A stretch of DNA of 34,384 nt, taken from the IMG/VR virus record IMGVR_UViG_3300020734_000011, positions 1-34,384 of that record; one strand, 5' to 3'. A program made the position numbers and the translations under genes. The stretch is from a virus. Position 1 is the stretch's first letter, and every line of letters begins with the position of its first letter. Under the pieces are notes generated by a model, which was not told the origin of the DNA, searched no databases, and worked only from the letters and a program-made list of their open reading frames with translations. This document shows, piece after piece, positions 12,798 through 20,505 of the stretch.

Positions 12798-14315
12798 TCA
12801 ATAACCAGTAGTAGCGTTGCGACCTTGTTGGTCATATCCTGCTTCGTGCATGGCAAACCTGTATTCTTCTTCATCAATTTCGCTTTGAGTCGATGCTACT
12901 TGCATCTGATCCAATAGTAAACCAATGTAAGCCCAAGCATCCACTTGGTCATCATGTCTATCTCTAGGAAAACGCATTAGCTCATCTTCAAAGGTCTGAT
13001 ACCAATCAGCAGAGTCATCAAACTTTACAGCACCTGCTCTCATACGGGCTTGCATTGACCTAGCACGACTTAACTTATCCCCACTAGGCTTTAACAAGAC
13101 TAGGTTGATAAAGGTGTCAGTCTTTAGCATTGCTTCGTTTAGGTATGGGCCTATAGACTTCTGAATAGTACCTGCTTCAATTCCAAACAATTCAGGTTTG
13201 TAAGTTCGCTGGAGGGCAAGGATAGTTTCCACAATCTGCATCGCATCCATCCTATCACGGATGATGTTCACACACTGCAAGTGCTGATTTTCATCCATCC
13301 CTGCCACAGCAAAAACACTGTAATCACTATGTTGCCTTTGGCTGATAGCTAAGTCAGCAGCAATATAATAATTTAAATTCTTTTTTCTATCGTCTTCTTT
13401 AAGTGGCGCAAAGTCGCTTTTCTTAAAGAATCCATTAGCATCATCAAGAGGAATATTTAACATCTCTTGACTATACGCATCAGCTAAGCCTTGTTGCGTG
13501 TACTGAGCTTTACGCTCTATTAATGCTTGTTTAGACCATCTATCAGGCCATAAGATCGTATTAAAGTCGTCTGTATGTGCCCTATACTTAATGGATAACC
13601 ATGAAGTCTTAAAGTTTGTGTACTGTTTTAAATCTTCAGTAATTAAGTTCTTTAATGCTTTAGAACCTAACGCACTAAGCTGAGACTCTGGCATTAAACG
13701 TTCTAACAATGAATCTAAATGAAGAATTGTACCTACAATCCTAATTTTACCTGTTACCGATAAACAAGGTATCAGTGCTGAATAAAACCACCTACGAAAT
13801 TTCTCTCTACGTTCTTTATTAAGAACCTGTTCATCAGATTCCATATCATCGCATATGATTAAATCAGGACGTCTATTTAACCATTTCAAACCACGAAGCT
13901 TTTGTTCTGATCCTTTAGCTTGAATACGAAAAGTATGTCCATCACTGAATTTACCTATTATATCATCTTCTGTTTGTTTTGTCAACTCAATGTTGCCAAA
14001 TAAACCATGTATGTCTTCATTATCCCTCAGTTCCTTAATTACATCACCAAGGAACAAACCAGCTTGACTAAAGCTGTCTGAGACAATCAAAGCATACTTA
14101 GACCGACGAAATAATATTTCTGCAAGTAAATAGGTATAAGTAACAGCAGTACTTTTACCATGCCCCCTAGGAGCAGCAATAGCAACAAACTTATCTTTAT
14201 GACAACACAAATCCCACAGTTCTCTATGGAATGGTGGAGTTTCTGTAGCACTGTCAAAGTTTTTAACCAAACAAGCATTACTAAAACCCTCAACGATTTC
14301 GCTAGACAACTCCAT
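12798..14315 (-). CDS. terL: Terminase large subunit
   Basis: 505 residues. ATPase domain: Walker A at about residues 47-56 (IAAPRGHGKST), Walker B at 151-158 (DLIICDDMES), with a coupling region near residue 195. Nuclease domain: RNase H-like start YYIAADLA with the metal-binding Asp near 321, a middle acidic residue in GIEAGT, and RHDDQVDAWAY near 465. It drives DNA into the head and cuts concatemers. Its ATG overlaps the terS stop, implying coupled translation. A perfect promoter lies inside it at 13957-13985. Confidence 0.95.
   Translation of the reverse strand: MELSSEIVEGFSNACLVKNFDSATETPPFHRELWDLCCHKDKFVAIAAPRGHGKSTAVTYTYLLAEILFRRSKYALIVSDSFSQAGLFLGDVIKELRDNEDIHGLFGNIELTKQTEDDIIGKFSDGHTFRIQAKGSEQKLRGLKWLNRRPDLIICDDMESDEQVLNKERREKFRRWFYSALIPCLSVTGKIRIVGTILHLDSLLERLMPESQLSALGSKALKNLITEDLKQYTNFKTSWLSIKYRAHTDDFNTILWPDRWSKQALIERKAQYTQQGLADAYSQEMLNIPLDDANGFFKKSDFAPLKEDDRKKNLNYYIAADLAISQRQHSDYSVFAVAGMDENQHLQCVNIIRDRMDAMQIVETILALQRTYKPELFGIEAGTIQKSIGPYLNEAMLKTDTFINLVLLKPSGDKLSRARSMQARMRAGAVKFDDSADWYQTFEDELMRFPRDRHDDQVDAWAYIGLLLDQMQVASTQSEIDEEEYRFAMHEAGYDQQGRNATTGY
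13957..13985 (-). promoter_or_regulatory. Perfect sigma70 promoter inside terL
   Basis: Minus strand TTGACA (13985-13980), 17 bases, TATAAT (13962-13957), with an extended -10 TG. All twelve consensus bases are present while also encoding LTKQTEDDII in terL. It would give extra transcripts for portal, scaffold and capsid genes. Confidence 0.7.
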
Positions 14316-14836
14316 TAATTATCAATAACCAATGGCGACGGTGTAATGTCTTTTTCTTTAGGCTTAGCAAAAGCTTTAAATTGCTCAGCTAACTTAGCTA
14401 AACGATCATCAACAGTCTTTTCAATCTGTTCTTGTTGTGGTTTAGATTCAATAACATCTTTACGCTCCAACATGTCATTAGCTACTTTAGCTGCATCTTT
14501 CATAGATACAGGAACACGAATTAGTTCAGACGTTTTAGGGTCATATTGATAATTACCTTTATCAAGCCTATCTTCTGTGACATCCAAAGCTTTAGACACT
14601 AATTTAGTTAACCTGGCATTAAGTTTAAGACTATCTTCAGATTTTAAATCTTCAACTATTTTCTTAAACCAATCTGTGTATTTCCACCGATTAAATGTTT
14701 GAATTGGAATATCTAAAACAGCTGCTGTTTGAGCACCATTGCCTAAAGCAAGGTATGTAGTAGCAGCTTCAAGCTTTTGACTATCAGACCACCATTTACC
14801 AGAAGCAACTAAATCTCTTTTTTTTCTACGTGTCAT
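14315..14836 (-). CDS. terS: Terminase small subunit (putative)
   Basis: 173 residues immediately upstream of terL and first in the leftward operon. The N-terminus is basic (TRRKKRDLVASGKWW), followed by a helix-turn-helix-like stretch LEAATTYLALGNGAQTAAVL then PIQTFNRWKYTDW, suited to recognising the packaging site. The central region is helical, and the C-terminus is Lys/Glu-rich. Family resemblance is moderate; position is the main support. Confidence 0.75.
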   Translation of the reverse strand: MTRRKKRDLVASGKWWSDSQKLEAATTYLALGNGAQTAAVLDIPIQTFNRWKYTDWFKKIVEDLKSEDSLKLNARLTKLVSKALDVTEDRLDKGNYQYDPKTSELIRVPVSMKDAAKVANDMLERKDVIESKPQQEQIEKTVDDRLAKLAEQFKAFAKPKEKDITPSPLVIDN

Positions 14837-14864
14837 TTTAAGACAATCCTTTACTTGATGTCTT

Positions 14865-14893
14865 ATTATAACATATCTTTGTTATTTTGTCAA
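14865..14893 (-). promoter_or_regulatory. Main leftward promoter (terminase/virion operon)
   Basis: Minus strand TTGACA (14893-14888), 17-base spacer, TATAAT (14870-14865), with an extended -10 TGT. All consensus bases are present. The predicted start lies about 20 bases upstream of the terS ATG. This is the promoter of the virion gene unit. Confidence 0.9.
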
Positions 14894-14999
14894 TACTTAT
14901 TTTAATTGTTACAAAATGTAAACTATTGTAGACAAATACCTACGTTATGTAACATATGAGATACAAAACACCAATATATAGGGGACATGTAATTAGTAC

Positions 15000-15028
15000 T
15001 TGACAAAAGAACAAAGTAGTGTTATAAT
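15000..15028 (+). promoter_or_regulatory. Main rightward promoter (early genes)
   Basis: Plus strand TTGACA (15000-15005), 17 bases, TATAAT (15023-15028), with an extended -10 TGT. It mirrors the leftward promoter 107 bases away. The transcript would carry a leader of about 1 kb, including all six iterons, before the first gene at 16070. Confidence 0.88.
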
Positions 15029-15107
15029 TACTATATAGAAACAATGTAGTATTTTCTTAGTAGCAATATAGTATGTTTTTAATATAGTAATAAAGACTAT
15101 TATTACA

Positions 15108-15125
15108 TAGCTCTACTCAGAGCTA
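15108..15125 (+). repeat. Hairpin in early leader
   Basis: TAGCTCT and AGAGCTA form a seven-pair stem with an ACTC loop, about 75 bases into the rightward transcript. A second small hairpin (AGTAC/GTACT) follows at once. No T-run follows, so it is not a terminator; RNA structure or a protein site is possible. Confidence 0.5.
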
Positions 15126-15310
15126 GAGAGTACATATCAGTACTGTGTTACTTGTGTCTAGCAACTACTTAGTGCTGCGTGTACGGTTCAGTGCTGTGGA
15201 CACTTAGTTTTTATTACTACATACTTCTTTACAGCCTCGCTAAGGCTACGCAGTACATCTTTGGCTACCTAGCCCTTCTCTATAGTACAACGACCTGTCC
15301 TGGGTTGTTC

Positions 15311-15333
15311 TGTGCCGATGTTTGTGCCGATGT
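15311..15333 (+). repeat. Tandem 12-bp direct repeat
   Basis: TGTGCCGATGT occurs at 15311-15321 and again at 15323-15333, a 12-base period. A second close duplication, AGCGTTATA, lies at about 15371 and 15384. Short direct repeats of this kind are common at origins and regulator sites; the function here is unknown. Confidence 0.5.
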
Positions 15334-15429
15334 CTCCTCAGACCCTACCCCCTGTTTTAAAAACTATGCCAGCGTTATAAATAGCGTTATATATATAATT
15401 AAATAATTCTTTTTTACCCCCACGCCCTA

Positions 15430-15439
15430 GGGAATACCC
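15430..15439. repeat. GGG-N4-CCC dyad, copy 1
   Basis: GGGAATACCC next to the first 20-bp iteron. It is a variant of the GGGTAAACCC dyads at 15904 and 15983. Confidence 0.4.
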
Positions 15440-15440
15440 T

Positions 15441-15606
15441 GTGTTGTTTCTATACCACACTAGGGAGGGCTTGTGTCATCCTGGAGCGTTGTTCTCTTGC
15501 AACAGTGTTGTATCTACACCACATAGTGTTGTATTTATACCACACTCTCTAGGCTTGTCAGGTTATAGTGTTGTTATTATACAACAGTGTTGTTTCTACG
15601 CAACAG
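15441..15606. repeat. Array of six 20-bp dyad iterons
   Basis: Six copies of a 20-base imperfect palindrome at 15441-15460, 15486-15505, 15505-15524, 15526-15545, 15568-15587 and 15587-15606. Consensus half sites are GTGTTG and CMACAS around an AT-rich centre; the copy at 15526 has eight perfect self-complementary pairs out of ten. Start-to-start distances are 45, 19, 21, 42 and 19, close to two or four helical turns, so bound proteins would sit on one DNA face. This looks like the binding array of a replication initiator or regulator, possibly phage-encoded. The protein is not identified. Confidence 0.8.
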
Positions 15607-15903
15607 TCCTGGTGAGTCTGTCCCCATTACTATATAGGCTGCACCAAAGCTGTGCATGTTTCACTATGTGGGATGCAATTTAGGGTGTTTCATATCGTGA
15701 TAAATTAAATCAACAACTTACACTACTCCGACACTACCCCTCCTTATATCATTATTGAGTAGTTATCCCCTTATCTTATAACTATAAAGCATATAGCATT
15801 TCATTATATGAAATTCAATTCTAAAGCCCTTTATCGGCTCTCTCAGCCCTTTTCAGTCATTCCCTAAAGTTAGTATGTCTCAGCCCTGATCTCTATTTAG
15901 TAA

Positions 15904-15913
15904 GGGTAAACCC
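15904..15913. repeat. GGGTAAACCC dyad, copy 2
   Basis: GGGTAAACCC, repeated exactly at 15983-15992. Both lie shortly upstream of the first rightward gene. Confidence 0.5.
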
Positions 15914-15917
15914 TAAG

Positions 15918-15952
15918 TATAACTATCCCATATGTCATAACTTTTAGTTATA
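15918..15952. repeat. 8-bp inverted repeat
   Basis: TATAACTA (15918-15925) and TAGTTATA (15945-15952) flank 19 bases, between the two GGGTAAACCC dyads. It could be a cruciform, operator or RNA hairpin. Confidence 0.4.
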
Positions 15953-15982
15953 TTCCACAATATGAGATAACCTGGATACCTA

Positions 15983-15992
15983 GGGTAAACCC
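15983..15992. repeat. GGGTAAACCC dyad, copy 3
   Basis: Exact second copy of GGGTAAACCC, 79 bases after the first, about 80 bases before the first early gene. Confidence 0.5.
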
Positions 15993-16069
15993 CTATAGGC
16001 CATGCCGTATCTTCTCTATATAGTTAATACATAGCAGCAAATTACCATTAACTAGTAAGGAATAAGATT

Positions 16070-16276
16070 ATGAAGATTAAAAGAGACTCTAGGGGTTTAT
16101 ATAGTGTCACTTGTAACGGCTTAGAGTGGTCAATTAATGATACGGGTAATCAGTCGGATTATGGCAATTGGAGATGGCAGGTTTACCAATACGGCAAAAA
16201 CTCGGACGGTTATTTTTGCGGAACATACAAAGAGGCAAAACAGTTAGTATTAAAATACTCAATAAACAAGGAATAA
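16070..16276 (+). CDS. Small early protein, unknown
   Basis: 68 residues, first gene of the rightward unit. Aromatic-rich (NGLEWSINDTGNQSDYG, NWRWQVYQYG), with beta-strand character and no Cys cluster or membrane segment. The ribosome site AAGGAATAAGAT is repeated almost exactly before the next gene. As first transcribed gene it is a candidate host-takeover protein; no family recognised. Confidence 0.65.
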   Translation: MKIKRDSRGLYSVTCNGLEWSINDTGNQSDYGNWRWQVYQYGKNSDGYFCGTYKEAKQLVLKYSINKE

Positions 16277-16280
16277 GATC

Positions 16281-17009
16281 ATGACAATATTTAAACGCAA
16301 GTCATTATTAGGTTTTAATACCAATGCCAAAACCGTAAAGGGCGTAAAGCTTGGCTACTTTACAGGAATTCTATACTTAGCCCCTAGTGATATCTCAGGG
16401 CATCAAGTATGTCCAATGGCAAAACTAGCACAATGCGAAAAAGCTTGCTTATATACGGCAGGGCGTGGCGCATTTAATTCTATCCAACAAGCTAGAATAA
16501 ATAAGACAAAATCATTTTTTGAAGATCAAAACAACTTTATGCTTAATATTGTCAAAGATATTGAGGCAGGTCAACGCAAGGCAGATAAGTTAGGGCAAAC
16601 CCTTTTAATCCGATTAAATGGCACAAGTGATATCCGCTTTGAGAATATTAGCTTTATTGATTTTGACGGTAAAACCTACGCTAATATTATGAGCCGTTTT
16701 CCATTGGTGCAATTTTATGATTATACAAAAATTCCTAACCGTAAAAACTTACCTAATAATTATGACTTGACTTTTTCTTATAGTGGCGTTGATAGCTTTG
16801 ACAAATATAATAAGATCGCCATTAAAAATCAGTTTAGAATTGCGACAGTTTTCCGCTTTAAAGTTGATATTCCACTAACATTTAAGGGCATGCCCGTAAT
16901 TGGTGGTGATGATAGTGACGTAAGGCACGTGGATCCAAAAGGGCATATTGTGGCGTTATATGCTAAAGGTAAGGCAATAAAAGATTTTAGCGGTTTTGTA
17001 ATTAACTAA
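16281..17009 (+). CDS. Gp88-family protein
   Basis: 242 residues. Conserved blocks: KLGYFTGILYLAPSDISG (24-40), then a Cys cluster C44, C52, C56 (HQVCPMAKLAQCEKACLYTA), GRGAFNSIQQARINKTKSFF, LLIRLNGTSDI near 110, and QFYDYTKIPNR near 150. This is the pattern of the phage 'gene product 88' family, whose function is unknown. The three cysteines are suitably spaced for a metal or Fe-S site, but that is inference. The gene lies four bases after the first early gene. Confidence 0.8.
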   Translation: MTIFKRKSLLGFNTNAKTVKGVKLGYFTGILYLAPSDISGHQVCPMAKLAQCEKACLYTAGRGAFNSIQQARINKTKSFFEDQNNFMLNIVKDIEAGQRKADKLGQTLLIRLNGTSDIRFENISFIDFDGKTYANIMSRFPLVQFYDYTKIPNRKNLPNNYDLTFSYSGVDSFDKYNKIAIKNQFRIATVFRFKVDIPLTFKGMPVIGGDDSDVRHVDPKGHIVALYAKGKAIKDFSGFVIN

Positions 17010-17672: not shown

Positions 17673-17861
17673 ATGAAAATTATTATAGAAGCTAAGAAAA
17701 ATTATGGCTCATGGGTTTATTACCCTATTTGCGACACCTCTCGATTATTTGCGGAGATAGCTAAAACAAAAACCTTGTCTATTGATACTGTCAACCTAAT
17801 TGAAAAGCTAGGTTACATTGTAGAAAAAAAAGCAGAACAACCTTTAGGATGGAATAAATAA
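17673..17861 (+). CDS. Early protein, unknown
   Basis: 62 residues, starting one base after the previous stop. N-terminal strand (MKIIIEAKKNYGSWVYYPI) then a helical half. The tight spacing and clean frame support it. No known family. Confidence 0.6.
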   Translation: MKIIIEAKKNYGSWVYYPICDTSRLFAEIAKTKTLSIDTVNLIEKLGYIVEKKAEQPLGWNK

Positions 17862-17862
17862 A

Positions 17863-18270
17863 ATGATTAACTTAGAACAATACAAAACTAGTGAAGAGTC
17901 TGCAATATATAAAAACATTCCTATAGCTTATCTTGATGAAGTAAAAAAACAATTTAAGGCAGAGGGCATTAAAATAAGGGTACGCTATAGGGGGCAACGC
18001 AACAATCCACTAGATACCCGTACGCAATATAATCGGTGGAATTGGTGTCTTCCACAATTTGCAGATCGCTTTAGCGTATATTATGCCGATTGTAAAAAAG
18101 CCCCAACCTATAAGGCATGGGAAGCACCTAAACAACTACGCACCTTATATGAATTTCATGTAGCGGTTATTGCAACAAAATACTGTTACGCAAAGAACAT
18201 TGCCGAGGCTAGAAAATTGGCGGGAGATAATGCCGTTTTTGTATCAGTTAAACAAGTGGGTGCAGAATGA
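17863..18270 (+). CDS. Early protein, unknown
   Basis: 135 residues, basic and aromatic, with KKQFKAEGIKIRVRYRGQRN and TRTQYNRWNWCLPQFADRFS. The helical C-terminus carries several Tyr and Ala. Its TGA overlaps the next ATG (ATGA). Charge suggests nucleic-acid or protein binding, but no family is recognised. Confidence 0.65.
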   Translation: MINLEQYKTSEESAIYKNIPIAYLDEVKKQFKAEGIKIRVRYRGQRNNPLDTRTQYNRWNWCLPQFADRFSVYYADCKKAPTYKAWEAPKQLRTLYEFHVAVIATKYCYAKNIAEARKLAGDNAVFVSVKQVGAE

Positions 18271-18500
18271 AAAACTACGCAATATTTATTGATAACATGG
18301 AAATACATATTAAGATGAAAGTAGGCACGATAGAGAGCCTTAATACGCTCAAGGAGGAGATTAAAGGGGCTATTAAGGGCAACCCTACGCAAGAGCATGG
18401 TTATGCCGAGCAATACCCCTTTTATCAAGCCGATTGGGAAATAGTAGGATACGGGTTTACCCCAGGTTTTGACATAAATACTATTTTGGAGGTTAGCTAA
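18267..18500 (+). CDS. Early protein, unknown
   Basis: 77 residues, ATGA overlap with the previous gene. Strand-helix-strand appearance (MEIHIKMKVGTIESLNTLKE, then WEIVGYGFTPGFD). No Cys, no membrane segment, not recognised. Confidence 0.6.
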   Translation: MKNYAIFIDNMEIHIKMKVGTIESLNTLKEEIKGAIKGNPTQEHGYAEQYPFYQADWEIVGYGFTPGFDINTILEVS

Positions 18501-20224: not shown

Positions 20225-20292
20225 GTATCAAATAGTCGTAAAAACGCCTAAAAAGCACCTTAAAACGCCTCTAAAAGGCATTGGAGAACACC

Positions 20293-20505
20293 ATGAGATG
20301 TTATTGTTGCAATAATTTATTATCTGATTATGAGGCGACCATTAAGTCGGTTAATTCTAATGATTATCTTGATATGTGTTTAAAGTGTTTAAAAACAGTA
20401 AAAACAGATATACTTTATCACGATAGAATAGATTTACTAAATAGTAATGACATAGATGACATTGATTATTATTTAGATGATTTAAGTAATCTAGATGATT
20501 ACTAA
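20293..20505 (+). CDS. Zinc-ribbon phage protein
   Basis: 70 residues from the ATG at 20293, which has GGAG six bases upstream; an in-frame TTG at 20281 is less likely. MRCYCCNNLLSDYEATIKS then YLDMCLKCLKT gives two CxxC pairs (about 3/6 and 33/36), a compact zinc ribbon. The acidic Asp-rich C-terminus is NDIDDIDYYLDDLSNLDDY. The N-terminal pattern is common in phage proteins of unknown function. Confidence 0.7.
   Translation: MRCYCCNNLLSDYEATIKSVNSNDYLDMCLKCLKTVKTDILYHDRIDLLNSNDIDDIDYYLDDLSNLDDY

Follow-up and report, generated by a model that had tools for sequence, protein, structure and literature searches.

A cluster of six directional sites in a phage early leader shares its sequence with a site upstream of bacterial outer-membrane genes

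The DNA analysed in this work, from a freshwater phage, carries, between its late and early genes, a cluster of a site that is also found upstream of bacterial outer-membrane genes. According to our comparison of phage and bacterial sequences, this array is probably a binding-site cluster for a host transcription regulator whose bacterial targets are outer-membrane protein genes. In what follows, the window is the whole stretch of DNA under analysis, which comprises 34,384 nucleotides (IMG/VR record IMGVR_UViG_3300020734_000011), and positions are counted from its first nucleotide.

The array is located in a large gap flanked by a leftward packaging and structural operon and a rightward early operon. 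The main features of the gap and of the genes around it are the following.

14315 to 14836, minus strand: terminase small subunit candidate, positioned before the large terminase gene
14837 to 16069, no strand: noncoding gap of 1.2 kb that separates the divergent late and early operons and contains the array
14865 to 14893, minus strand: divergent late promoter, TTGACA-N17-TATAAT, 12/12 match to sigma-70, before the small-terminase candidate
15000 to 15028, plus strand: early promoter, TTGACA-N17-TATAAT, 12/12 match to sigma-70
16281 to 17009, plus strand: early gene of the GP88 family (PF17338), found in genomes with and without the array
17673 to 18500, plus strand: three early ORFs (62, 135 and 77 aa) found together with the array solely within the close clade

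The preliminary description had placed the array inside the predicted leader of the early transcript, and the position of the sigma-70 promoter, together with the start of the first early gene at 16070, bears this out: the array lies approximately 406-571 nt downstream of the predicted early start. On the other side of the gap, Pfam and PHROG gave no convincing match for the small-terminase candidate. Further into the early region, a 74-aa early protein (20281-20505) has two CxxC pairs and an acidic tail, and is common to 11 of the 19 genomes compared, including array-less relatives.

The six sites of the array are listed below with their agreement with the form of the site found in bacteria.

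15441 to 15460, plus strand: site 1, GTGTTGTTTCTATACCACAC, 0 mismatches to the bacterial form
15486 to 15505, plus strand: site 2, GCGTTGTTCTCTTGCAACAG, a degenerate copy of 13.4 bits, unmatched at 2 mismatches to the bacterial form
15505 to 15524, plus strand: site 3, GTGTTGTATCTACACCACAT, 0 mismatches to the bacterial form
15526 to 15545, plus strand: site 4, GTGTTGTATTTATACCACAC, 0 mismatches to the bacterial form; the nearest relative has one whole extra site here
15568 to 15587, plus strand: site 5, GTGTTGTTATTATACAACAG, 1 mismatch to the bacterial form
15587 to 15606, plus strand: site 6, GTGTTGTTTCTACGCAACAG, 0 mismatches to the bacterial form

Six dyads had been described at these positions, with start-to-start spacings of 45, 19, 21, 42 and 19, and we recovered all of them, the copy at 15486 being weak. 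With a weight matrix, exactly these six sites exceed 9 bits and none is found elsewhere in the 34-kb window, while shuffled windows give about 1.4 matches at 9 bits and 0.3-0.65 at 11-13 bits. A generic dyad with three mismatches allowed occurs 72 times across the window versus 72 by chance; the signal is therefore the clustering, with six sites within 166 bp of one intergenic region. The idea that the sites are phased at about multiples of two helical turns stands loosely and fails as strict phasing, since 45 bp corresponds to 4.3 turns; a period of 10.5 bp shows only weakly among 112 non-independent spacings taken from relatives (vector length 0.23, nominal p 0.003).

The consensus of 216 distinct sites found near other sites, TGTTGTWTYTAYRCMACA, is a pseudo-dyad with a directional centre, whose core is TGTTG-N8-CAACA and in which CCACA is frequent as the right arm. 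The spacer of 8 is singled out, with 68 matches in relatives versus mostly 1-25 for other spacers. Because arm pairing is broken (T against C) in 47 of the 216 sites and a compensated pair is present in just 1 of them, the site is considered to be recognised as DNA. The array lies inside a transcribed leader and its dyads are able to pair, as hairpins in the RNA of the early leader would do, but this covariation count is contrary to such a reading, the folded array is no stabler than its shuffles (z -1.4) and an Rfam search gave no match. For these reasons, a structured leader RNA was rejected, and we give it next to no credence.

The conservation of the array in related phages, which the preliminary description had proposed as a check, gave a mixed picture: the dyads and their spacing are lost in many close relatives, and arrays are present in 70 viral contigs, which were matched by a two-site pattern whose chance expectation was estimated at well under one match. 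The array-bearing contigs differ in their terminases, their capsid and other structural genes and their replication genes (helicase/primase), and in many of them the array is again placed between the terminase and the early genes despite unrelated terminase, structural and replication genes. The copy number shifts by whole sites (5, 6, 7) among relatives; L002 has five sites in the gap, L004 has six, and the nearest relative (L068/L020) has a seventh, with an exact gain or loss of 30 bp. Most relatives with an approximately 90% identical large terminase have no array, which is therefore not essential to this genome type. Such a loss in relatives refutes the array as an essential initiator target, but not as a regulatory element.

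Single copies of the site are found in other phages too, close to sigma-70-like promoters: in G001, L159 and L194 they precede the promoter start by approximately 54-66 bp, in L312 the copy is at or near the start of the terminase promoter, and in L321 it covers the -10. Array phages have no fixed array position relative to any one promoter. We found no array match in annotated phage and plasmid collections, nor in the scanned isolates related by helicase or terminase. Exact two-site arrays gave only 8 scattered matches in 257 billion bases of genomes, which makes the array a feature of phages and the single site one of bacteria. A module composed of a site, TTGACA, a second site and a GGCCTAGGGTAAACCCTAA-like element is present in three copies in L076 (3152-3240, 4282-4370 and 4516-4605), upstream of two genes, as a duplicated control region.

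This distribution bears on the suggestion, made in the preliminary description, that the array could consist of replication origin iterons bound by an initiator. The cumulative GC skew, which had been proposed as a check, does reach its minimum near 16 kb, but the skew turns where gene orientation turns, so that the two are confounded. Moreover, among the close relatives with the same helicase and polymerase, most lack the array; phages with different replication modules have it in common, and in other phages the site is represented by single copies at promoters. No initiator domain was found in Pfam among the 20 proteins searched, most of them early. An initiator array is thus very improbable.

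The sites could instead be operators of a regulator encoded by the phage, for instance the 62-, 135- or 77-aa early protein, and the preliminary description had named the small early proteins among the possible binders. Indeed, in the close clade the three genes go together with the array, about 25 relatives without the array essentially lack them, and a homologue of the 62-aa protein is also present in the distant array phages L172 and L187. However, the co-occurrence with the array is restricted to that clade: almost no other array phage has the 135- or the 77-aa protein, and the 62-aa family is also present in the array-less L001, L258 and L259. The model of the 77-aa protein (pLDDT 85) is beta-beta-alpha-beta-beta, without a helix-turn-helix, whereas that of the 135-aa protein is too poor to read. 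A regulator of this kind would also leave the bacterial sites unexplained, and we consider it improbable. Across lineages, no phage gene tracks the array and no binder candidate is shared among array phages, very divergent proteins being less detectable; a universal phage-encoded binder was rejected on the basis of this lack of a shared candidate and of the 77-aa model.

The bacterial occurrences of the site are the main evidence for a host regulator. In the family of G599, 52 exact sites were found in 46 of 150 genomes, so the exact site is present in some genomes only, versus 2 for the reversed pattern; the order of G137 gave 8 exact sites versus 0 for the reversed-pattern control (320 genomes). 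In a broad sample of Gammaproteobacteria the site is not enriched (7 versus 4 for the control). At the positions left free in the bacterial search pattern, the bases agree with those preferred in phages (W, Y, mostly Y). The order of G137 was taken as Burkholderiales because this genome has 34 TctC genes, an expansion of PF03401, and we infer that the site-bearing bacteria are Burkholderiales-like. Many genomes in the family of G599 are small and AT-rich, and this family would correspond to Methylophilaceae. A single distant match to the phage helicase was found in the candidate host family.

At 40 of the 42 bacterial loci, the site falls outside any ORF of 100 aa or longer, which is true of another phage dyad at 1 of 12 loci (p 9e-9). 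Approximately 37 of the 42, many of them orthologous and hence non-independent MlaA promoters, adjoin outer-membrane or exported-protein genes. Outer-membrane Pfam families were matched by 15 of the 19 neighbouring proteins tested. The neighbour families include MlaA, Porin_O_P, Porin_4, OmpA/OprF, OmpW and TonB receptor, as well as outer-membrane efflux protein (TolC-type), FadL and inverse autotransporter. The site lies upstream of these genes, mostly at a distance of 35-180 bp, and occurs in both orientations relative to the gene. This location before bacterial outer-membrane genes suggests that the array is probably bound by a regulator of the dimer type, which is likely to be a host factor, in agreement with the other option that the preliminary description had offered. 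In the bacterial loci L357-L391, the site is TGTTGTTTTTATGCAACA and conserved mlaA promoters (TAGACA-N17-GATAAT) lie downstream; the promoter of the outer-membrane gene in L365 also carries a Fur box. The sites in L357-L391 apparently mark an undescribed bacterial outer-membrane regulon, and a literature search for the motif sequence returned no match and no known regulator with this motif.

In other phages, boxes of known bacterial regulators are found in the place of the array or next to it. In L017, a close relative without the array, four sites resembling the Fur box (consensus AATGAgAATcATTctCATT, PMC1790865) are present in the same leader, 577-795 nt ahead of the small terminase gene, which is the place of the array in the window; shuffles give none. 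Among the other dyads in the vicinity of arrays, TGCAC-N7-GTGCA shows the strongest enrichment (24 copies in 16 of 54 regions, none expected), and by its sequence it is the NtrC box, TGCACCAnnnTGGTGCA (PMC8743547). The Fur boxes in L017 and the NtrC boxes near arrays therefore point to binding by a host factor.

Single or triple Fur-like boxes are also present in L019/L033, L021/L025 and L038. In L177 (2410-2550 and 5108-5126), L183, L190 and L208, two or three NtrC-box dyads, about 29 bp apart, lie among the array sites and are accompanied by -24/-12 elements of the sigma-54 type (TGGCAC/T-N5-TTGCT); in L177, an intergenic TTGGCACGATTCTTGCT that matches perfectly also precedes the helicase gene region. 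The promoters of these four contigs look NtrC/sigma-54 dependent. In the window, two further dyads follow the array.

15640 to 15656, no strand: NtrC-box-like dyad, TGCACCAAAGCTGTGCA, 2 mismatches to TGCACCAnnnTGGTGCA
15659 to 15673, no strand: copy 1 of a TTTCAYNNTGTGAAA-like dyad, with more copies at 15688 and 15799

The TTTCAYNNTGTGAAA dyads form a third family, with 3-5 copies in several close relatives of the phage; there is no clear enrichment of them in the family of G599, where the matches lie inside ORFs. Dyads of the AGGGTAAACCCT type are found in the window at 15904-15917 and 15984-15997, also adjoin array sites in L076, and occur as AGGGTTTACCCT in L017. Consensus sequences for LexA, CRP, FNR, Zur and PhoB occur in the leaders at about shuffled levels, isolated single matches aside.

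Considering these results together, we propose that the host regulator would bind the array during infection. From its position in the leader downstream of a strong early promoter, and in a divergent gap, the array may modulate early, and perhaps late, transcription, with roadblock, repression or activation as the possible modes of control. In this way, the state of outer-membrane (receptor) regulation in the host would feed into phage transcription. Phages commonly use porins, FadL and TonB receptors for entry as their receptors, and by analogy with the proposal made for CtrA sites and pili or flagella, a decision linked to the receptor is plausible.

Regulation of early transcription by the host surface state would be the likeliest role of the array, with titration of the regulator as its main rival. 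In the latter, six sites per genome, multiplied by replication, would act as a sponge that draws the host regulator off outer-membrane genes and alters receptor levels, for example limiting superinfection. The existence of multiple near-consensus copies with loose spacing, the variation in copy number by whole sites among relatives, and the variable position of the array relative to any one promoter are consistent with a sponge, but the single promoter-proximal sites of G001, L159, L194, L312 and L321 are unneeded by one, and different lineages keep the array in the early/late gap. We regard titration as rather unlikely, and control of transcription is favoured because of the leader position and the promoter-proximal sites in other phages.

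More generally, we tentatively suggest, as a possibility, that freshwater phages link their early programme to an undescribed outer-membrane regulator, and hence to their own receptor supply, and that Fur and NtrC/sigma-54 sites can be exchanged for its sites in the same leader. If true, this would represent a general nutrient- and receptor-sensing switch in many uncultured phages without a recognised repressor. At the level of sequence, the arrays make it possible to test whether the host surface state is read by phages beyond CtrA, in probably abundant freshwater bacteria, and they point to an apparently undescribed regulon in which one 18-bp site precedes MlaA, porin, OmpA, OmpW, FadL and TonB-receptor genes. 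With their many near-consensus copies, phage arrays would also be a good bait for the regulator.

Several known systems share some of these characteristics. The stoperators of mycobacteriophage L5 are 13-bp sites of the phage repressor that are spread through the genome; like the sites described here, they are repeated directional sites in transcribed regions, oriented with transcription, although no such phage repressor was found in our case. In phage GIL01, host LexA operators are an example of a host repressor acting on phage promoter sites (PMC4551915); unlike the phage studied here, with a leader array of another site, GIL01 is temperate and its LexA boxes are at the lysogenic promoter P1. 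In Alphaproteobacteria phages, clusters of binding sites for the host CtrA were described, for which "lytic deferment" has been proposed (PMC9437464). As in our array, these are dense host-regulator sites in large intergenic regions, including divergent gaps of about 1 kb, they are incompletely conserved between close relatives and they occur in unrelated phage lineages; in both cases the regulator controls surface structures used as phage receptors, pili and flagella there and, as we infer, outer-membrane proteins here. They differ in that the present array consists of another site and would involve another regulator and other bacteria, and in that close relatives swap in Fur-like or NtrC-like boxes. 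The CtrA box is TTAA-N7-TTAA, from which TGTTG-N8-CAACA differs, and CtrA was thus rejected as the regulator. By analogy, the CtrA site clusters are the closest precedent for the array, which resembles that system and is not a case of CtrA.
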